Positions 13,717 to 31,914 of a DNA stretch of 31,914 nt are shown one piece after another. The stretch lies in the IMG/VR virus record IMGVR_UViG_3300025112_000100, positions 1 through 31,914 of that record; one strand, 5' to 3'. Position 1 is the first letter of the stretch. Every line of letters starts with the position of its first letter. Position numbers and translations under genes: made by a program. This DNA is from a virus. Under the pieces are notes generated by a model. That model had not been told where the DNA came from and made no database searches. It worked only from the letters and a program-made list of their open reading frames with translations.

Positions 13717-15300
13717 ATGTTAAATAAAGACACTTCACGTACACTTACTGAGAAGTGGAATCCGATTCTGGAAGGGATTGAGGACTCGTCAACCCGTGAG
13801 AGTACCGCCGTCCTTCTGGAGAACCAAGCTCGTTCTATTATGAACGAAATGACTAAGGATGGAAATCGTCTTGACGAGTCCACCGGTGTTGGTTCTCTTG
13901 GCACATTCCAGAAGTTCGCATTCCCTCTCATTCGTCGGGTTTTCCCGGAATTGATTGCCAATAAGGTCTGTGGTGTACAACCTATGCAGGCACCTGTTTC
14001 CCAGGTGTTCTACCTGGGTTACTCCCGTACAGGGGGTCATGCAGGTGATAGTGCTAACACGTCAGAGACTGTGTATAGCCGCTACAACCTGACCTACGCC
14101 GGTCGTGATGCATCCGCTAACGATGCTGATGGTTGGGGTACAGGGTCATCTCTGGATCAGCAAATCCTAGATGGTGGTCCTTATGATGGTATGGGAACTA
14201 ACCCTGGTTTGTCCGGGCACACTCTCGCTGCTAACGATACTGCTGGCGGTAAGATTGCAGCTTGGCCGAATACCCAGCAAACCTACGCTCTTGATGTATC
14301 CAGTGGGGAAAGCCTAACTGGGTCTGCTATTCCAGAAATCAACTTCCATATCGAACAACAGGCTGTTATGGCTCGTACTCGTAAGTTCCGTGCGCTTTGG
14401 ACTCTCGAAGCTGCTCAGGACCTTCGTGCGTACCACAACTTGGACCTGGAGCGCGAATTGACCGACTTGCTCGGCAAGGAAGTTTCTTTGGAAATCGACC
14501 GTGAACTTCTAGAAGATATTCGTGGTATTGCATATGACTGGACTGCCAATGATGGCTGGAACCGTGATATGCTTTCCTTGGGTAACTCTAATCGTTTCCC
14601 TGATGACGGCACCGGTAACTTTAACCCATCTGGTTTCTACTACGAGTTGAACCAGTATAACGGCGGCACCCCTGGCCCCGGAGGGTCAGGACCAGATGCT
14701 GACGTAATTGGCTCTAACCCTGCTGGTAATCGCAGAACTAATGGTAACGTTTTCTTAGTTGATTTCGCTACCTCAGCGCTTGGTCTTGACCCTCGTCACG
14801 TTGGTCAAGTATACGCCAACCTGGTTGCTGTGCTAAATTTCGCTTCTCAAGATATCTACAAGACTACTTATCGTGGAGCTGGTAACTGGATTGTTACTTC
14901 CCCGATGGTTGCCGCTATCCTTTCTTCGGCTTCTAAGCTTGAAGGTGGCGTGCGTCAAGGTGAGTTTGAGGGTAAACTTGGTGCTAACATTCAGTACAAA
15001 GGCAAGTTGATGGGACAATTTGACGTTTACGTTGACCCACTTTGGCCAGAGGATGAAATCCTCATGGGCTACAAGGGTTCTTCCCCAATGGATTCTGGTT
15101 ATATTTACTCACCATACATTCCACTGCAGATGCTCCCAACCATCACAGACCCTGATACGTTCCAACCACGTAAGGGCTTGCTCACTCGCTACGGCAAAAC
15201 TGCTGTATCTCCTGAGTCTCGCTTCTTCCGGGTTATTCGTCTAATGGGCGCTAACGCTAACTTCCTACACCAACCATTCTCAACTGTGACTGGTTCGTAA
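13717..15300 (+). CDS. gp23: Major capsid protein (T4 gp23-like)
   Basis: A 527-residue precursor of the hexameric capsid protein. The hallmark block is RRVFPELIANKVCGVQPM (around residues 74-91), followed by PVSQVFYLGYSRTGG. Upstream, GNRLDESTGVGSLG contains a candidate gp21 cleavage site after E54 (L-x-E), so the mature protein would start near S55. Other family landmarks are FHIEQQAVMARTRKFRALWTLEAAQDL, a helix with LERELTDLLGKEVSLEIDRE, and the C-terminal SPYIPLQMLPTITDP and TRYGK segments. Size is typical of the family. ATG 13717 follows the scaffold stop by 5 nt, with AT-rich GATAAATAATT just before it. Confidence 0.97.
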   Translation: MLNKDTSRTLTEKWNPILEGIEDSSTRESTAVLLENQARSIMNEMTKDGNRLDESTGVGSLGTFQKFAFPLIRRVFPELIANKVCGVQPMQAPVSQVFYLGYSRTGGHAGDSANTSETVYSRYNLTYAGRDASANDADGWGTGSSLDQQILDGGPYDGMGTNPGLSGHTLAANDTAGGKIAAWPNTQQTYALDVSSGESLTGSAIPEINFHIEQQAVMARTRKFRALWTLEAAQDLRAYHNLDLERELTDLLGKEVSLEIDRELLEDIRGIAYDWTANDGWNRDMLSLGNSNRFPDDGTGNFNPSGFYYELNQYNGGTPGPGGSGPDADVIGSNPAGNRRTNGNVFLVDFATSALGLDPRHVGQVYANLVAVLNFASQDIYKTTYRGAGNWIVTSPMVAAILSSASKLEGGVRQGEFEGKLGANIQYKGKLMGQFDVYVDPLWPEDEILMGYKGSSPMDSGYIYSPYIPLQMLPTITDPDTFQPRKGLLTRYGKTAVSPESRFFRVIRLMGANANFLHQPFSTVTGS

Positions 15301-20300: not shown

Positions 20301-22718
20301 ATGGAACTTAACAGCAATTCACTTAACATTTTCGAAACATATCTGGACACAGTCCTTTCGGAAGCTGGCACATCGGGGAAACACAACCGGTGGTTCTACG
20401 GCGCCGAACAGGGGTCTATAGATACCCTGGCAACGTTTGCTAGAACACCAGATGGGTTTAATACACCAGAATCGGCAAAGCAAAAAACCGCAAATGGCGC
20501 CGCTTGGAGGGACTACGCAACTGACCAAGGTGGGGAACAGGGAGGGGAGCACAAAGTTTACTGGGTAAGCCTTTCAGGTCCACAAAGTGCAAGCGCGAGC
20601 ACGTTGTTAGCTGCTATTGCAAAATGGAAGCCTGAAGAGGAGCCCGACGCTGAACAGTTTAAGAAAGAGGGAGAGGCGTTGCCTGCTCAGCAGGAATTCG
20701 ACGCGGAACAGCAAGCACTCGCGGAGGAAGAAGCTGAAGTACAACAGGAGAGGCAAACTGACCGCCAAACAGACCCAGAAACTGTAGAAAAGGTGGCTAA
20801 CATTTTAGCTGAGCGGTTAGAGTTAGACCCAAATAAAGCACGTAAGATGGCAGAGACTCTTGACGCTAATTGTAAAAAACCTACCGACCACAAGTTTGCA
20901 AAAGATTATAGAGCTCTCCTAGCCTATACCAGAACAGATGAGCACAAATTTGGACTTCCAGGAGAAGCCAACGCGGAAATGATGGATGCTTTTGTCGACC
21001 TGCTTGAAATTACGAAACATATTAAGCGAGACTCAGAAGGTGAGTATGTGTTAGAGGAAGATTTGACAGAACGACAAAAAGATATCCTAACAAGTGTTAG
21101 AGCAAGAGGGCAAAAAGGTCAGAACGGGGTCTACGTAGGGTATGACGGCGATAGAGCCCATAAAGTTTTTCCAAATATATCCCAAGCCCTCGTCGATATC
21201 CAAACTTCTTTGACTGGGCAAGCCTCTGAAGAAGCTCAGGAAGCTGCTGATATTGCTTCCCCGGACCTTTTCAAATATGGTGTATCTGTTAGGGGTTCAG
21301 AGCCTATTGGTGAGGCATTAGGAGGGGTAAAGATTAGGAAAAAGGATGGAAGCGAGGAGTTAATGTTAAATCTTACCTCTGCGGCAAAAACAACTGCCTC
21401 TAATAAATCCATAGGGGAGTTTACCGAGAAGTCCTGGGTTGGCATGGTTAATTTTATGACAACAGGTGCTGACGATGGAACCTTACAAGAGGGGATTCAA
21501 TCCTTTGCTAAACACTGCCAACTTATGGCTCAAGTTGCAGCCTCTAACCCTGACAAACTCCGGAAACAGCTCCCGGATGTCCCTTTTACCGCACAGGAGG
21601 AAGCCGAGCTTGAATGGTTTGATAGAGCCAATGATTTTTACAACACCCATGGACAGCCAAATGAGCTCGTTAAGGCTGTTTTTATGCAGAATGCAATGAA
21701 CCTAGCAAGAGTATTTCACCACGCTCAGGTGGCTCCTATAAGCGCCAGAGAACCGGATGGGGACGAGCCTCGCGGAAACGACTTAAAGTTTGGAGTTAAA
21801 CGAGATATTGTGTTTGATTTCGCAAACAATAGTGATGCCGTAAAGTTTTGTAAATCATTAGGGTTAGGTTCTGAGTACGCACATGGGACAGAGGTAGACC
21901 TTTCTTTAAAACAACTAACGAGGACAACAGGAAAAGTAAACAACGAAGGCGCAACTCTCCCCGTAGCTTTAGGCCAAAGCACAAACTCATCTAAGCAGCA
22001 GCAGTTTGAAGACCATAAGGAAAGTACTTATGATAAAATTCGTAAGATGAATCTGCCAAGTGGACGCAGTGAAAAGCTCGTAACAGCCATGGACAAAGCC
22101 CGAGACTGGGACACGGAACAATGGTCTACCATTTTTTCTGCTCTACACCCCAAAAACGGGAAAGTGCAAGGGTCTATGAGCACTCTTTTTAATAGTGTGT
22201 TAGATAAAAACTGCCCGCCAACACCTGAAGGGTTGAAAAGACGTGAGGGGTTTAATCAGTTGTGGAAGGATTATAAGGCTTCCATGGAGGGTTCTATAAA
22301 CCCAACTAAAGAATCATGGGTTTTAGCGCAAAAACTATTTGGCGCGTTAAAACATCATAGGTCTGAAACAGACGAGCAATACAGGCATGGTTCTTCCTTG
22401 AACGAGACAATGGGGTGCCTAACATCTTCTCACTCAGAAATTCTAATGAGGATGCACCAGGATAAAGTAGCCGCATATGGCGCTGATGGGGCTCTTGCTG
22501 ATACAGTAGACGCGTGTCAGAATGGTAATTTGGTCTCAAAACCTAATGGAGGATTTTACATCACGGACGACTCAGGAAATCGTATAAGCGAGACTAGTTA
22601 TGTTGTTGCTGTAGGTTCAAATGGTCAACCTTTTATAAGGCTTCGAGGGGGTTTTGAAGGAAAACGTTTCAATGACGAATCCTATCATATACCTCCAGAT
22701 ATGAAATCTACTCCATAA
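20301..22718 (+). CDS. Very large protein of unknown function (possible virion/internal protein)
   Basis: An 805-residue protein I do not recognise. It has four visible zones. The N-terminal ~110 residues are probably globular, ending near LLAAIAKWKPEEE. Residues ~110-160 are Glu/Gln-rich and helical (QEFDAEQQALAEEEAEVQQE). A long mixed region from ~160 to 720 contains SVRGSEPIGEALGGVKIRKK, GMVNFMTTGADDG and FARV-like helices (FMQNAMNLARVFHHAQVAP). The C-terminus is beta-rich (GGFYITDDSGNRISETSYVV). There is no signal peptide or membrane segment. It follows the tail tube hairpin and precedes a convergent minus-strand gene, overlapping it by 11 nt. T4 has the portal (gene 20) here, but nothing in this sequence resembles a portal. 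Confidence 0.75.
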   Translation: MELNSNSLNIFETYLDTVLSEAGTSGKHNRWFYGAEQGSIDTLATFARTPDGFNTPESAKQKTANGAAWRDYATDQGGEQGGEHKVYWVSLSGPQSASASTLLAAIAKWKPEEEPDAEQFKKEGEALPAQQEFDAEQQALAEEEAEVQQERQTDRQTDPETVEKVANILAERLELDPNKARKMAETLDANCKKPTDHKFAKDYRALLAYTRTDEHKFGLPGEANAEMMDAFVDLLEITKHIKRDSEGEYVLEEDLTERQKDILTSVRARGQKGQNGVYVGYDGDRAHKVFPNISQALVDIQTSLTGQASEEAQEAADIASPDLFKYGVSVRGSEPIGEALGGVKIRKKDGSEELMLNLTSAAKTTASNKSIGEFTEKSWVGMVNFMTTGADDGTLQEGIQSFAKHCQLMAQVAASNPDKLRKQLPDVPFTAQEEAELEWFDRANDFYNTHGQPNELVKAVFMQNAMNLARVFHHAQVAPISAREPDGDEPRGNDLKFGVKRDIVFDFANNSDAVKFCKSLGLGSEYAHGTEVDLSLKQLTRTTGKVNNEGATLPVALGQSTNSSKQQQFEDHKESTYDKIRKMNLPSGRSEKLVTAMDKARDWDTEQWSTIFSALHPKNGKVQGSMSTLFNSVLDKNCPPTPEGLKRREGFNQLWKDYKASMEGSINPTKESWVLAQKLFGALKHHRSETDEQYRHGSSLNETMGCLTSSHSEILMRMHQDKVAAYGADGALADTVDACQNGNLVSKPNGGFYITDDSGNRISETSYVVAVGSNGQPFIRLRGGFEGKRFNDESYHIPPDMKSTP

Positions 22719-23558: not shown

Positions 23559-23859
23559 CATTACCTCTGAAAAAGACCTGACTGGGCTGTACGCTAAGAA
23601 AAAGAAAGGGTCTTTTTTCATCTTATACACTTCCCTGTGGGATGTCGCCTGCCAGAGGTTGCAGGCGCAAGTGGATAAGTGGAGGGAGCACGAGGGTGAG
23701 GAAACTCTTTACATTATTAACAGCTGGGACATGCCGGCTGCGTTTTCAATGTTTATGATTACTTCCGCGCCATCCTTGGTATCTGTTAAAAAGGGGAAAG
23801 TAAAAGTTAACGTGGAGTTCCCTACAATATATCGGTTTTTCGATGTTTCGGGGGAGTGA
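23542..23859 (+). CDS. Thioredoxin-fold protein lacking the N-terminal active-site cysteine
   Basis: About 105 residues from ATG 23542, chosen because an upstream in-frame ATG (23497) lies deep in the preceding gene. FFILYTSLWDVACQRLQAQV (residues 25-44) matches the thioredoxin strand-loop-helix with WDVAC where WCxxC is expected: the nucleophilic first Cys is Asp34 and the second is kept as Cys37. Residues 76-80 (APSLV) match the cis-proline loop. The C-terminal strand and helix (VKVNVEFPTIYRFF) complete a small fold. It is unlikely to be a normal dithiol oxidoreductase. It could be a processivity or assembly partner, as thioredoxin is for T7 polymerase, but that is speculation. Its 3' end overlaps the convergent sigma gene by 38 nt. 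Confidence 0.6.
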   Translation: MRQIINITSEKDLTGLYAKKKKGSFFILYTSLWDVACQRLQAQVDKWREHEGEETLYIINSWDMPAAFSMFMITSAPSLVSVKKGKVKVNVEFPTIYRFFDVSGE

Positions 23860-24229
23860 CGTATTCGTCACTGAATCTTTCCTCCATCATCGTTTGGTAC
23901 TTTTGGATTTTTTGGCGATACTTTTTATTCTTTGTAAAAATAAGCTTCAGGTTGTTTACAATAACTGTAGTAAAATAGTTAAAAGCTGCTCCATTATCTG
24001 GATTAAAATTCTTTAATGTTTTAATGGCTAACAAAAAACATTCCTGCTTGGCGTCATCAAAGTCCACGTTGAATTTAAACGACATTAAAATGTTTGTAAT
24101 TAGTAAGTCCAAAAGCTCTATGAGGCGTTCCTCATGTTTTGCGGGATTTTTTAAATATCCTTTGATTACCTTTTCAAACTCTGTATTATCTATATAATGG
24201 GTTTGTTTCTTCTTTTTAACCATAACCAA
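23822..24229 (-). CDS. gp55: Late-transcription sigma factor (T4 gp55-like)
   Basis: A 135-residue minimal sigma factor, expected to bind host RNA polymerase and recognise late promoters. The core sigma region 2-like block is FDDAKQECFLLAIKTLKNFN (~60-79), followed by GAAFNYFTTVIVNNLKLIF. The 'AF.YFT.I..N' pattern is diagnostic of gp55-type factors. The preceding helix (HEERLIELLDLLITNILMSF) fits the core-binding part. T4 gp55 is 185 residues, so this one is short. Translation may start at 24229 or at the second ATG (24223). The CTAAATA-type motifs in this window are its likely targets (inference). It is divergent from the polymerase gene, 9 nt away. Confidence 0.83.
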   Translation of the reverse strand: MVMVKKKKQTHYIDNTEFEKVIKGYLKNPAKHEERLIELLDLLITNILMSFKFNVDFDDAKQECFLLAIKTLKNFNPDNGAAFNYFTTVIVNNLKLIFTKNKKYRQKIQKYQTMMEERFSDEYVTPPKHRKTDIL

Positions 24230-24238
24230 TTATAGCCC

Positions 24239-25219
24239 ATGAGTTTAGATAGTTTACTTAATTCTTTCGAAAATGATGAAAAGAAGCAGGTCCACCGTGA
24301 AGATGTTGGGGACGAGAAAATTGTGTTCATTCATGATTCGTACCGCCAAAAGTACGGCAAGACCTACAGCTTCGACGACGAAGAGTATGGGATTTTGTCT
24401 ACTTTACTTGCTAAGACTAATGTCCCCTCCTCCTCTTACCAGTTTATACCCGCAATTGGAGGGTTTAACATACGAGAGGATGACGTAACAACTGAGCTCC
24501 TTCACATTCATAGGGAGAAACTTCTTGAGGACTTAAATGCCATCGGTCCCACTTTAATAATTCCGCTAGGCAATCTATCCTTTAAGACTTTAACTAAGAA
24601 GTCTGGGGTTTCTACTAAGAGAGGGAAGGAGTTCTTTGTTGACATCGACGGAAAGAGCACTCCCATCGTTCCTACGCTCCATCCCTTTTCTCTATACTCT
24701 GAGCCAAAACTTAGGAGATTGTTCGTCCAGGACGTTGACAATGCGTATGACAAGTTTGTGCTTAATGTGAACAAGTTCGACTCCAGCCCATATGAGTTAG
24801 TAACTGAGGTGGACAGGTTTGAAGAACTGATTACTGAGGCTTTAACGCATGAGGCTGTGGCTATGGACATAGAAACCAATGGTTTGGATTATAAATTAGG
24901 AAAGATTATGACTATAGGGTTTTCGTTCGGAGAACGCCAAGGATTTGTTATTCCAATATACCACAGCGAGTCTCAGTTTATAGAAAAAGATATAGTCCGT
25001 ATTAAGGGTTTGACCCAAAATCTTATTTCAGATGAGAACGTCGTCAAAATTTTTCATAATTCAAAATTTGATATAAAGTTTTTGCTTAATTGGGGAATTT
25101 CCGACTTTAATAATATCGAGGATACGCAAATTATGCACGCGCTTGTGGATGAAAATTTGCCACACTCTTTAATGGATTTAGTAAAACAATACTTTCCACA
25201 TGAACTAGAAAAATTTTAA
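24239..25219 (+). CDS. polA: Family A DNA polymerase, fragment 1: UDG-like domain plus exonuclease motifs I and II
   Basis: A 326-residue N-terminal piece of a split polymerase. Residues ~60-175 resemble a uracil-DNA-glycosylase fold: LIIPLGNLSFKTLT (106-119), TKRGKEFFV and VPTLHPFSLYSEPKLRR (144-160). The usual family 4 UDG N-terminal catalytic motif is not visible, so this domain is probably inactive. Residues ~205-326 start the DnaQ-like proofreading domain: ExoI AMDIETNGLD (D210, E212), ExoII FHNSKFDIKF (N274, D278), then DTQIMHALVDENLPHSL. The frame stops at LEKF, before ExoIII. ExoIII appears about 1 kb later, after the glutamine synthetase gene. Upstream it is divergent from gp55. Confidence 0.93.
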   Translation: MSLDSLLNSFENDEKKQVHREDVGDEKIVFIHDSYRQKYGKTYSFDDEEYGILSTLLAKTNVPSSSYQFIPAIGGFNIREDDVTTELLHIHREKLLEDLNAIGPTLIIPLGNLSFKTLTKKSGVSTKRGKEFFVDIDGKSTPIVPTLHPFSLYSEPKLRRLFVQDVDNAYDKFVLNVNKFDSSPYELVTEVDRFEELITEALTHEAVAMDIETNGLDYKLGKIMTIGFSFGERQGFVIPIYHSESQFIEKDIVRIKGLTQNLISDENVVKIFHNSKFDIKFLLNWGISDFNNIEDTQIMHALVDENLPHSLMDLVKQYFPHELEKF

Positions 25220-25220
25220 A

Positions 25221-26192
25221 ATGATTACAGTAGAATACATTTGGTTAGACGGCACGGAATGGATGCCGCAGTTGCGCTCGAAAACACGAGTGTTTAAAGA
25301 AGCTCCTTCTAAATTGCCCGATTGGTCTTTTGATGGTGGAAGTACAAATCAGGGAACTGTTGAAGATTCAGACCGCATCTTAAAGCCCGTGCGTTTGTAT
25401 AAGAATCCTTTTAAGCCTGGAGATAATCACCATCTTGTATTATGTGAAGTTTGGGACTCTAGTTCTGTGCCCCATCCCACAAATCACCGCAATATGTTAA
25501 CAAAGATGGGCTCCGATGCTGCTTGGTTTGGGTTTGAGCAGGAGTACACCTTTGTACGACCTGACGACAGTCTCGTCGTTCCTGAGGACCTAGGTCAGGG
25601 AAGATTTTATTGTGGTGTCGGTTGTGGCAATGTCCTTGGGAGAACTATTTCAGATGCGCATTTAGAACTATGTGAGAAAGCCGGGATTACTTTGTTCGGG
25701 ACCAATGCGGAAGTAATGTTGTCCCAATGGGAATTCCAAACCCAGCCCGAAGAAGCGGTGAAAGCCTCTGACGACCTATGGATGGCTCGGTATATTTTGG
25801 AGAGAGTTGCAGAAGGAATGGATATTAGAATTTCATACCATCCAAAACCAAGTCCAAATTATAATGGAGCTGGGTGCCATACCAACTTTTCTACCAATTG
25901 GACTAGGAAGAGTTGGGATGGAGTATTGGAAGTGCTGGACGCTTTGGAAGGGACACATGAAGCGCATATGAAAGTGTATGGAAGCGATAATCAGTTGAGG
26001 ATGACTGGAGCCTGCGAAACCTCGGACTACAACTCTTTCACATACGGCGTAGGGGACCGCTCGGCTAGTGTTCGAATTCCCCTAGCTACGCATGACGCTG
26101 AATGCGGATATCTAGAAGATAGACGCCCCGGGGCAAATTGTGACCCTTATCTTGTTACCTCTAGACTCTTAGAAACTTTAATAGTATGTTAA
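25221..26192 (+). CDS. glnII: Type II (eukaryotic-type) glutamine synthetase
   Basis: A 323-residue, apparently complete GSII, which makes glutamine from glutamate, ammonia and ATP. Motifs in order are WSFDGGSTNQ (35-44), GFEQEYT (104-110, metal-binding Glu), YCGVG (130-134), NAEVMLSQWEFQ (162-173), NGAGCHTNFST (215-225), DNQLRMTG, GVGDRSASVRIP (276-287) and YLEDRRPGANCDPY (297-310). The length fits bacterial GlnII (about 330). It starts 2 nt after the stop of polymerase fragment 1 and its end overlaps a 30-codon gene by 7 nt. It therefore sits inside the polymerase operon, splitting the exonuclease domain. Bacterial GSII occurs in rhizobia and actinomycetes. As a phage metabolic gene it would supply nucleotide synthesis. 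A PG-to-LS change in the EVMPGQWE motif is the only oddity I see. Confidence 0.95.
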   Translation: MITVEYIWLDGTEWMPQLRSKTRVFKEAPSKLPDWSFDGGSTNQGTVEDSDRILKPVRLYKNPFKPGDNHHLVLCEVWDSSSVPHPTNHRNMLTKMGSDAAWFGFEQEYTFVRPDDSLVVPEDLGQGRFYCGVGCGNVLGRTISDAHLELCEKAGITLFGTNAEVMLSQWEFQTQPEEAVKASDDLWMARYILERVAEGMDIRISYHPKPSPNYNGAGCHTNFSTNWTRKSWDGVLEVLDALEGTHEAHMKVYGSDNQLRMTGACETSDYNSFTYGVGDRSASVRIPLATHDAECGYLEDRRPGANCDPYLVTSRLLETLIVC

Positions 26193-26278
26193 GTGATTGC
26201 AAAGTTTGTGGGGGAACTGGTATTATCCTCGTCGATGACGGAGGAGAAAGAAAGTTTTGGAAGTGCCGTAAATGCTAA
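26186..26278 (+). CDS. 30-residue four-cysteine zinc-ribbon-like mini-protein
   Basis: A 30-codon frame reading MLSDCKVCGGTGIILVDDGG then ERKFWKCRKC. It has two CxxC pairs (C5/C8 and C27/C30), the first in the DnaJ-type context CxxCGGTG, separated by a short beta-hairpin-like stretch: a minimal zinc ribbon. It overlaps the end of glutamine synthetase by 7 nt and the start of polymerase fragment 2 by 7 nt, fitting tightly into the junction, which argues that it is real. It may be a relic of a larger domain or a genuine micro-protein. Function unknown. Confidence 0.5.
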   Translation: MLSDCKVCGGTGIILVDDGGERKFWKCRKC

Positions 26279-26745
26279 CAGTACCTGATGGAGCGAAGCA
26301 CGATTGGGGTAGCATGCCCCTGGATGAAATGGCAATTGGCAATGCCATGGATTGTGATTTTACGTTGCGATTCTGGCACATTTTACGTAAAGAGATGCGT
26401 AAGAAGCAGTTAAACTTTGTATATGATAATCTCCTCAAAGACATTGCATTGGAGCTCGCGGGTGTTGAAAACTTTGGAATTTCAGTGGACACTGATTACC
26501 TGGATGAGTTGGAGGTTAAATTAGAGAAAGAGATTGGAATTCTTGAAAAAGAGCTACAAGAGTTGTCACCTATTGATGAGGTTAACGTAAACTCTAATGT
26601 AGATTTACAACGAATTTTGTTTACAGAGGATGAAGGGTTAAACCTTTACCCTGTAACCTTTACTAAGAAAACTAAGAAACCCTCGGTAACTGACGCCGAC
26701 CTTCAATTAATTTTGGAGGAGATAGATAAAACATTAGCTGGATGA
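26272..26745 (+). CDS. polA: Family A DNA polymerase, fragment 2: exonuclease motif III and thumb region
   Basis: A 157-residue middle piece. SMPLDEMAIGNAMDCDFTLRF (14-34) is the ExoIII region, with the metal-binding Asp at 27; the usual Tyr four residues before is Gly23. It continues with the helical thumb segment GVENFGISVDTDYLDELEVK and the NVNSNVDLQRILF block (equivalent to 'N..S..QL...LF'), ending with TKKTKKPSVTDADL. ATG 26272 has GGAAG about 9 nt upstream and lies within the mini-gene. It overlaps fragment 3 as ATGA. With fragments 1 and 3 it accounts for essentially the whole of a phage PolA, so the split seems to lose little or nothing. Confidence 0.92.
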   Translation: MLTVPDGAKHDWGSMPLDEMAIGNAMDCDFTLRFWHILRKEMRKKQLNFVYDNLLKDIALELAGVENFGISVDTDYLDELEVKLEKEIGILEKELQELSPIDEVNVNSNVDLQRILFTEDEGLNLYPVTFTKKTKKPSVTDADLQLILEEIDKTLAG

Positions 26746-27857
26746 AGAAAGAAATATACCAAAAAGTAATAGCCGAGAAGAAAAAAGCAGAACTCAAAGC
26801 AGCCAAAGAGTTTATTGAAAAGCTCGTTGAGTATAAGAAAAAGTGTAAGCAACACAAGACGTATGTGAAGGGTGTTAAAGACGCCATCGCGTACAATGAA
26901 GAGGACCGCATTTACTCCAGCTATAACTTCTCACAGACCGTTACTGGACGTCTGAGCTGTTCCACGTATGTGTGTGGCCCAAAGATGAAGAAAGGGGTTT
27001 CCTTTCACACGTTACCGCGACCTACGGAGGATAATGTAAACATTAGACGGCTTATGAAAGCCGATGGGGGTAAAGCATTTGTTGCTGCCGACTTTTCCCA
27101 AGCTGAACTGCGGGTTCTTGCGCAATGCTGTAAGGATAAAAATTTGATTAAAGCGTTTACATCAGGTCAAGACCTCCACAGCTTTACCGCATCTTTGGTG
27201 TTTGGTAAAAAAGTTGAGGATGTTACAAAAGCGGAACGCCAGATTGCAAAAAGCGTTAGCTTCCTTATCGTGTATGGCGGAGGTCCTAACAAGTTGGCAC
27301 AACAGATTAATAAACCTGTTTCTTATTGTAAGGGTATTTTTAAAGCGTACCAAGACTCATTCCCAAACGTTTTTAAATGGATTAATCTTATCCATAAGAG
27401 CGTCAAGGAGAATGGCCACGCCGTAAGCCTTTTTGGTAGGCGCAGAAACTTGCCAAATGTTAATAGCCCCATTAAACGATTCCAGTTCAGGGCTTTAAGG
27501 CAAGGCTTGAATTTTGTTATTCAAAGTTCAGCTTCCGACCTTATGCTACATTCAATTACTCGTTTATGTAAAGATTTAAAGAAGGAAGGAGTTGAATATG
27601 ATTTGTTAGCTACTGTGCATGACTCAGTAGAGTTGCAGTGCGAAACTAAAGATGTGGATAGGTGCGTAGAGATTATGCGAGAAAGCTTAACCTCCACTGC
27701 TGATTTGAAATCCTATTACGGTTTGGATTTTGTAGTCCCTTTTGAGGTAGATATCGAGGTTGGCCCCTCTTTTGGGGACGGGTTGGAAGTAGATTTTGAT
27801 TCCGCAGGGAGCCCTCTAAACACAAGTGAGCTAATTGCCCATGTCCAGAACAACTAG
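26742..27857 (+). CDS. polA: Family A DNA polymerase, fragment 3: thumb, palm and fingers
   Basis: A 371-residue catalytic piece. It has a Lys-rich start (residues 1-45), then SQTVTGRLS (64-72), motif A AADFSQAELR (catalytic D117), O-helix RQIAKSVSFLIVYGGG with R167, K170, F174 and Y178, RQGLNFVIQSSASD (253-266), and motif C TVHDSVEL (catalytic D294). F174 aligns with E. coli Pol I residue 762. Phe there is linked in virioplankton studies to virulent rather than temperate phages. Motif C reads HDS, not HDE. The start overlaps fragment 2 (ATGA) in a different frame. An undetected one-base error could merge fragments 2 and 3, but not fragment 1. The 3' end overlaps gp47 by 17 nt. Confidence 0.95.
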   Translation: MKKEIYQKVIAEKKKAELKAAKEFIEKLVEYKKKCKQHKTYVKGVKDAIAYNEEDRIYSSYNFSQTVTGRLSCSTYVCGPKMKKGVSFHTLPRPTEDNVNIRRLMKADGGKAFVAADFSQAELRVLAQCCKDKNLIKAFTSGQDLHSFTASLVFGKKVEDVTKAERQIAKSVSFLIVYGGGPNKLAQQINKPVSYCKGIFKAYQDSFPNVFKWINLIHKSVKENGHAVSLFGRRRNLPNVNSPIKRFQFRALRQGLNFVIQSSASDLMLHSITRLCKDLKKEGVEYDLLATVHDSVELQCETKDVDRCVEIMRESLTSTADLKSYYGLDFVVPFEVDIEVGPSFGDGLEVDFDSAGSPLNTSELIAHVQNN

Positions 27858-30457: not shown

Positions 30458-30759
30458 CTAACGACAAATTTAATTTAGAACCAATCGGAACCAATCTGGT
30501 AGTCCGCAGAGCTACAGTGGAGCTTACTTCTGAGCACGGTATCCTCATGCCTGCGTCTGTAACAAGTACAAAGCTTAACGAAGGGGTGGTTATGGCAGTG
30601 GGCCAAGGCTCTCGGGATTCCAGCGGAAATAGAATCCCCCTTGATGTTGAAGTAGGTGATGAGATTTTGTGGGGAGACTTTACTGGGAGCGATATCGTTC
30701 GTGGTGGTGACACTTTCTGCATTTTAAATGAACAAGATATTCTCGTAATTGTACGATAA
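30454..30759 (+). CDS. groES: GroES-like co-chaperonin (functional analogue of T4 gp31)
   Basis: A 101-residue protein with the Cpn10 layout: LEPIGTNLVVRRATVE (7-22), a mobile-loop region with HGILMPAS (28-35), LNEGVVMAVGQGSRDSSGN (41-59), VEVGDEILWGDFTGSDI (66-82) and the C-terminal strand LNEQDILVIVR. Bacterial GroES is about 97 residues. T4 replaces GroES with gp31 to fold its capsid protein in GroEL, so the same role for gp23 here is likely. The mobile loop contains the hydrophobic ILM triplet that docks to GroEL. ATGA overlap with gp46 and TAATG overlap with nrdJ tie it to this operon. Confidence 0.88.
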   Translation: MTNDKFNLEPIGTNLVVRRATVELTSEHGILMPASVTSTKLNEGVVMAVGQGSRDSSGNRIPLDVEVGDEILWGDFTGSDIVRGGDTFCILNEQDILVIVR

Positions 30760-31914
30760 TGGGCTACATCCTACCTAAAAATTCTCTAGGGGAGACTATC
30801 TTTATGGATAAGTATGCTTATCCTGGGGAATCCACGTGGAAAGAGCTTTCCAAGCGTGTTGCTAAGGCAGCCGCCGACCCCGAGTTCCCGGAGATGAGAG
30901 AGAAGACCGAGGCTAAATTCTTCGAGGCTATTCATTCCGGAGATTTCTGCCCAGGAGGTCGTATTCTGTTTGGCTCGGGAAGAAGCAAACAGAACATGCT
31001 CAATTGCTATGTTCTAGACCCAGAGGATTCTGTTGAAAGTATTGGTAAAGTAATCTCCGATATGTATAAGATTTCTTGTGGGGGAGGAGGGATTGGATTC
31101 AATTTCTCTAAGGTCCGTCCGAAAGGAGACAATATTCAAAATATTAAGAATTCAGCTCCTGGGTCTATCAGTGTGATGCGCATGATTAACGAGATTGGTA
31201 ATCATGTACGTGCCGGAAAAAATCGTCGCACGGCGCTCATGTCTATCCTAGATATAACTCATCCGGATTTCCTGGAATTTCTTCACGTTAAATTAGATAG
31301 AAATGAACTAACCAATTTTAACATCTCAGTGGCCATTACTAAGAGATTTATAGAGGCTGTTGAGAAGGACGAAGAGTGGTATTTTACATTTGGAGGCAGA
31401 CAGAACACATATTTTGTATATGAGGTAGAGAGAATCTCTGAGTTAGGCAACGACGGCATTGATGTGGTCGCTCGAAACGAAGAAGATGCTCTGGATAGAG
31501 CTCGACTTCACCATTTAAAACATTATGCGGATACATTTACAACAGCCAAGAAAAAGGAAATCCGCGCTCGTGAACTCTGGGAGCGTATCGTAGATAACGC
31601 AATTGAATCAGGGGAACCGGGAATTTTCAACATAGATTTTGCTAACGAATATACTAACGTTTCTTACTTTGAGCATATGCCTTCTACTAACCCGTGCGGG
31701 GAGGAGGTTCTGCCTGCATACGGTAACTGCTGTCTTGGCCATGTCAATCTTGCTAATATGGTTGACCTTGACGGGACTATTGATTGGCGCAGGATGGCTC
31801 GTACTGTTCGCACGGGGGTTAGGTTCTTGGACAACGTCCTTACTACGAACCATTTTCCGATTCCGGAATGTGAAGAAGCAGGAATGCGCTCCCGACGTAT
31901 CGGCTTGGGAATTA
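30759..31914 (+). CDS. nrdJ: Class II (adenosylcobalamin-dependent) ribonucleotide reductase, 3'-partial
   Basis: The frame is open to the window edge: 385 residues of a longer enzyme that reduces ribonucleotides using B12. Features are CPGGRILFGSGR (64-75), NCYVLDPEDSVESI with redox Cys83, CGGGGIGFNFSKVRPKG (107-122), RRTALMSILDITHPDFLEF (156-174), FNISVAITKRF (187-197), GEPGIFNIDFANE and TNPCGEEVLP with thiyl-radical Cys313. The absence of an ATP-cone and the GGGIGF/LRPKG-type context favour class II over class I. An insert of about 55 residues (211-265) is unusual. ATG overlaps the groES stop (TAATG). C-terminal cysteines are outside the window. Confidence 0.9.
   Translation, partial: MGYILPKNSLGETIFMDKYAYPGESTWKELSKRVAKAAADPEFPEMREKTEAKFFEAIHSGDFCPGGRILFGSGRSKQNMLNCYVLDPEDSVESIGKVISDMYKISCGGGGIGFNFSKVRPKGDNIQNIKNSAPGSISVMRMINEIGNHVRAGKNRRTALMSILDITHPDFLEFLHVKLDRNELTNFNISVAITKRFIEAVEKDEEWYFTFGGRQNTYFVYEVERISELGNDGIDVVARNEEDALDRARLHHLKHYADTFTTAKKKEIRARELWERIVDNAIESGEPGIFNIDFANEYTNVSYFEHMPSTNPCGEEVLPAYGNCCLGHVNLANMVDLDGTIDWRRMARTVRTGVRFLDNVLTTNHFPIPECEEAGMRSRRIGLGI

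Follow-up and report, generated by a model that had tools for sequence, protein, structure and literature searches.

A type II glutamine synthetase (GSII) is encoded at a fixed joint within a split family-A DNA polymerase gene (polA) in the stretch of DNA analysed here, from an uncultivated T4-like phage (the window; 31 914 nt, IMG/VR record IMGVR_UViG_3300025112_000100). We consider it probable that this gene is a replaceable cargo of the joint, most probably active as an enzyme, and that it supplies glutamine during genome replication. The features of the locus are summarized in Table 1.

Table 1. Features of the split polA locus, in window coordinates
Feature	Position	Strand	Evidence and remarks
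polA piece 1: UDG-like N-terminus and 3'-5' exonuclease motifs I and II	24239..25219	+	PF01612 8.7e-20; phrog_17 3.7e-38
Cargo junction: stop TAA / A / ATG	25217..25223	+	Sequence
Type II glutamine synthetase (GSII)	25221..26192	+	323 aa, ATG start; Pfam, PDB, AlphaFold, Foldseek
30-aa CxxC...CxxC ORF, zinc-ribbon-like, second cargo gene	26186..26278	+	Sequence; kept in L002 and L003
polA piece 2: exonuclease motif III and start of polymerase domain	26272..26745	+	phrog_17 1.3e-15
polA piece 3: palm/fingers	26742..27857	+	PF00476 9.3e-75
Ribonucleotide reductase (RNR) large chain, start; cut by window end	30759..31914	+	Continues as L002:15539-17443

The GS product matches Gln-synt_C (PF00120, 6e-20) and Gln-synt_N (PF03951, 1e-9) in Pfam, both above the curated cut-off. 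Its match to GSII is much stronger than to GSI or GSIII, and it was assigned to type II because GSII structures in the PDB (phmmer, up to 8.2e-86) far outscore those of GSI (3e-9 or weaker). The AlphaFold model of the monomer, built with 27 aligned sequences, has a mean pLDDT of 93.8 and a pTM of 0.93; Pfam, AlphaFold and Foldseek all indicate the β-grasp and catalytic domain fold, and the best Foldseek match is Streptomyces coelicolor GSII (4bax; TM 0.96, r.m.s.d. 1.5). This fold is common to the GSII enzymes of Streptomyces (4bax), yeast (3fky), maize (2d3a) and human (2ojw) (TM 0.91–0.96), which are ~41–44% identical to the window GS and share all of its catalytic residues, whereas the window GS reads FDGGST where they have FDGSST, has shorter loops and belongs to a separate virus-only clade.

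The full set of metal-, ATP-, glutamate- and ammonia-site residues is present, with D38, S41, E106, E108, Y130, E164, E171, H220, R260, E266, R280, R285, E299 and R301 invariant among 27 phage and cellular GSII sequences. We take E106, E108, E164, E171, H220 and E299 to be the metal ligands, R260, R280, R285 and R301 the phosphate/ATP/glutamate arginines, E266 the flap glutamate, and D38, S41 and Y130 the ammonia-site residues, with E164 also counted at the latter site. Ser65 of human GS, in the ammonia-site region, presumably corresponds to Gly40 in the window GS, which counts against our main reading. From its intact active site and fold, the window GS is most probably enzymatically active. 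The initial annotation, made from the DNA letters, had described a complete GSII in a 323-residue frame; the Pfam and PDB matches and the active-site residues bear this out. The protein search and structure prediction that it proposed show a GSII fold and the phylogeny a virus-only clade, and none of the metal- or ATP-binding residues whose loss it named as a possible refutation is missing from the 27-sequence alignment.

Alignment with contiguous polymerases places the break in polA within the 3'-5' exonuclease domain. Piece 1, which has a weak UDG match (PF03167) at its N-terminus and ends in HELEKF, carries motif I (D210 and E212) and motif II (D278) upstream of GS, and piece 2 carries the motif III aspartate (D27, in NAMDCD) downstream; we assign the motif names after Klenow. 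With motifs I and II on the opposite side of GS from motif III, the codons of one active site are divided by GS, and the exonuclease, if active, must assemble from two chains. Piece 2 also matches Taq/Klenow and PF00476 (9e-6, below the cut-off), and it overlaps piece 3 by ATGA (26742–26745), so that the polymerase comprises three ORFs and not the two parts first described. Most clade members (e.g. L021–L032) have pieces 2 and 3 fused; this second split is confined to the subclade of the window (window, L004, L008 and L010). Two distances in the initial annotation also needed revision. GS starts 1 nt, not 2 nt, after the exonuclease stop codon (25217–25219), and the statement that the polymerase resumes within ~80 nt holds for the 79 nt gap before 26272, but this gap contains the 30-aa ORF, which had been missed. 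That ORF overlaps both the end of GS and the start of piece 2 and has a weak match to A2L_zn_ribbon (PF08792, E=0.058, below the cut-off).

The phage context and the nearby RNR gene that had been noted were confirmed: the major capsid protein (13717–15300) is homologous to T4-like capsids, replication genes flank GS, and the RNR gene, which lies ~3 kb downstream of polA piece 3, matches PF02867 (2e-116) in L002. Directly upstream of the polymerase operon is a divergent sigma-like gene (23822–24229, minus strand; Sigma70_r2 1.8e-5, weak late-sigma PHROG match). An 805-aa protein encoded at 20301–22718 has no PHROGs match and is 34–40% identical in L010 and L005, where its neighbours are >80% identical.

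The layout is not peculiar to one assembly. L002 (51 kb) and L003 have the arrangement of the window, with GS differing by 0 and 6 nt, respectively, and in L004–L006, whose polA pieces are 85–88% identical to those of the window, a GS of 58–60% identity occupies the same position. In all, about 31 non-identical loci have GS at this polA junction. The search of related phage genomes for the same insertion site, which had been suggested at the outset, thus found GS there repeatedly, diverged contigs included, and because the layout recurs in independent as well as diverged contigs, the chimeric assembly at the GS borders that had been named as a possible refutation is ruled out. A group I or II intron was likewise rejected, since the window contains no Rfam intron and the empty site in L008 is a clean TAATG; nor is there a nuclease in the window insert that would mark a gene split by a homing endonuclease. 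An artefact of either kind is therefore practically inconceivable.

Related contigs bear L numbers; a scan with polA piece 3 gave 80 loci. polA is split at this point in every clade member in which both parts are visible, and the distant outgroups L250–L255 have a single contiguous exonuclease and polymerase ORF. Among 49 non-duplicate clade rows the junction holds GS in 31, other cargo in 12 and nothing in six. In L008, in which polA is 90–96% identical by piece to that of the window, GS is absent and the exonuclease and polymerase ORFs meet at TAATG, a junction also found in most relatives. The description of GS as embedded inside the polymerase is therefore correct as to location, but GS broke no gene here, the split being native to the whole clade, empty junctions included. 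Alternative cargo includes the thymidylate synthase ThyX (PF02511, 1e-49), PDDEXK_11 nucleases (L200:4082–4558 and L213:4070–4552; 4e-26 and 9e-29), an 80-aa ORF in L010 and recurrent unnamed ORFs of 60–85 aa; in L004 a DUF3310 protein adjoins GS. A 659-aa protein without Pfam or PHROGs match (L031:9748–11727) lies in the joint beside GS and ThyX. Mapped onto the polA tree, the presence of GS requires 11 changes, compared with ~17.7 in shuffles, so that cargo came and went repeatedly. The junction is a slot for interchangeable cargo, of which GS is the commonest. No GS was found elsewhere in 23–101 kb fragments of GS-less relatives; GS is thus dispensable at least there, which counts against our main reading.

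In a 90-row GS tree the window GS falls in a 33-row viral-only clade (SH-aLRT 99), and the virus-only clade has support of 100/100 in a careful 38-row tree. The 33 rows comprise 28 polA-junction GS, four GS of another phage group and L038. The GS of the other group lie next to or near RecA; in two of these loci (L033:7563–10010 and L036:2293–5843) GSII is near a dUTPase-like gene and directly precedes the RecA-like gene. Huge-phage and other viral GSII fall outside the clade, and this scatter indicates repeated acquisition of GSII by viruses. Among the matches listed, the cellular GS nearest to that of the window come from marine bacteria, SAR86 included, and are 48–50% identical to it; nothing closer was found in two phyla sampled at 398 and 296 genomes. 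Within that coverage, the trees and genome searches speak against recent capture from a host, and with its deep virus-only clade this GS does not qualify as a host-derived AMG of recent cellular acquisition.

The GS genes of the relatives are under purifying selection, with a dN/dS of ~0.05–0.13, low like that of the flanking polymerase. GS and polA identities conflict in several pairs (60% versus 85–88% for window–L004, 73% versus 91–92% for L231–L239, 61% versus 85–88% for L234–L238), and the view that GS and polA were inherited together in a strictly vertical manner is unsupported, although an AU test of the sisterhood of the window and L004 GS did not reject it (p=0.088). GS alleles may have been swapped at the joint, or GS may have evolved faster. 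The incomplete match between the GS and polymerase histories counts against our main reading.

The exonuclease part, the cargo and the polymerase part are separated by gaps or overlaps of 1–4 nt, and this operon spacing suggests that translation of GS would be tightly linked or coupled to that of the replication proteins; SD motifs are uninformative on coupling, as a clear one is missing from most genes in the window. During infection, phage GS would form glutamine from glutamate and ammonia, and the extra glutamine could supply host glutamine amidotransferases of purine, CTP and amino-sugar synthesis, after which RNR, ThyX (in relatives) and the polymerase would turn the nucleotides into phage DNA. 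GSII enzymes lack the adenylylation control typical of many GSI, and phage GSII could thereby escape this control and make the glutamine supply independent of host nitrogen control. A glutamine-for-nucleotides role is plausible from placement, namely the replication operon, RNR, ThyX as cargo, and dUTPase and RecA in the second lineage. In 11 related contigs, all fragments, no phage glutamine-dependent amidotransferase (GATase) or QueC was found, so that host enzymes would have to be the consumers of the glutamine; this too counts against the reading.

Alternatively, GS may serve mainly to restore or boost host ammonia assimilation in nitrogen-poor water with no special nucleotide link, the polA joint being merely a permissive, strongly expressed site. 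This nitrogen-economy role is a real possibility that falls somewhat short of probable: unrelated junction cargo such as DUF3310 and the small ORFs is consistent with it, as are PII and amtB in the marine viral AMG literature (PMC8115048) and a GS gene among the AMGs of predicted SAR86 viruses (PMC10721903), while ThyX and RNR nearby and the dUTPase–GS–RecA neighbourhoods of L033 and L036 suggest a nucleotide or replication context instead. Quite improbable is a changed substrate, with GS acting as a γ-glutamyl ligase on another amine, for example in DNA base modification or on polyamines. The deep virus-only clade and the position within a DNA polymerase operon would fit such a role, and GS-fold amidoligases are numerous in phages and are nearly the sole named viral matches in BFVD, where the window GS found partial and distant matches only, mostly amidoligases. 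Against it, the ammonia-site residues D38, S41, Y130 and E164 and all the others are conserved, true GSII are its closest matches, with GSI-like ligases far removed, and no modification genes were identified.

How the split arose is a separate matter, compatible with the functional readings. Insertion of GS may have split polA in an ancestor, the empty and other-cargo junctions being later losses and swaps; GS is the commonest cargo, and polA is contiguous in the outgroups and split in all members. We consider this unlikely, as the junction is empty in L228 and L241, the members that diverge most, and there are several other junction genes, including PD-(D/E)XK nucleases in keeping with a split of homing-type origin; long branches weaken any reading of the root and the order of events. 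The nucleases of L200 and L213 are a possible engine of cargo exchange. A broader proposal, which we regard as possible though doubtful, is that the exonuclease joint is a recombination-active cargo dock into which PD-(D/E)XK nucleases import genes, that the phage GSII lineage and ThyX circulate as swappable replication-coupled modules and that the exonuclease is reassembled in trans.

To return to GS as replaceable cargo, the locus presents a metabolic gene in a fixed, exchangeable slot of a phage replication operon. Its empty, GS, ThyX and nuclease versions are directly comparable, so that the gain from phage-made glutamine and the spread of cargo become testable. It also offers a proofreading exonuclease that is naturally divided, its catalytic acids lying on two separate proteins, and an old branch of GSII that is known here from viruses only. 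Split polymerases occur elsewhere, as T4-like gp43 polymerases are also split. The OM43 phages MEP401 and MEP402 have a small ORF between the two ORFs that make up polA (PMC10580990); there the break follows the start of the polymerase domain, whereas in the window clade it lies inside the exonuclease domain and holds GS, ThyX or nuclease cargo. The initial annotation did not regard GSII as a common phage gene, but at least 569 GSII-encoding stretches in IMG/VR (some probably non-phage), huge phages and GOS data from 2007 argue otherwise. The huge-phage GSII (LR756501, LR745206 and LR756502) are 41–45% identical to the window GS and lie outside its clade, with no polA recognised beside GS in the ORF lists. 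A viral type II GS was already reported from GOS data in 2007 (PMC1821046), and GS or glnA figures in later AMG lists for putative SAR86 viruses (PMC10721903) and jumbo phages (PMC13037316). These are, like the window, cases of GS in marine or large viruses; the passages compared from the three sources, unlike the window clade, present no polA-junction location or alternative cargo. The literature covered, which is partial, nowhere reports GS at a polA junction, and while the separate elements are known, a virus-only GSII lineage in a conserved, exchangeable slot of a split polA, inside its exonuclease domain, is, within that coverage, apparently new.
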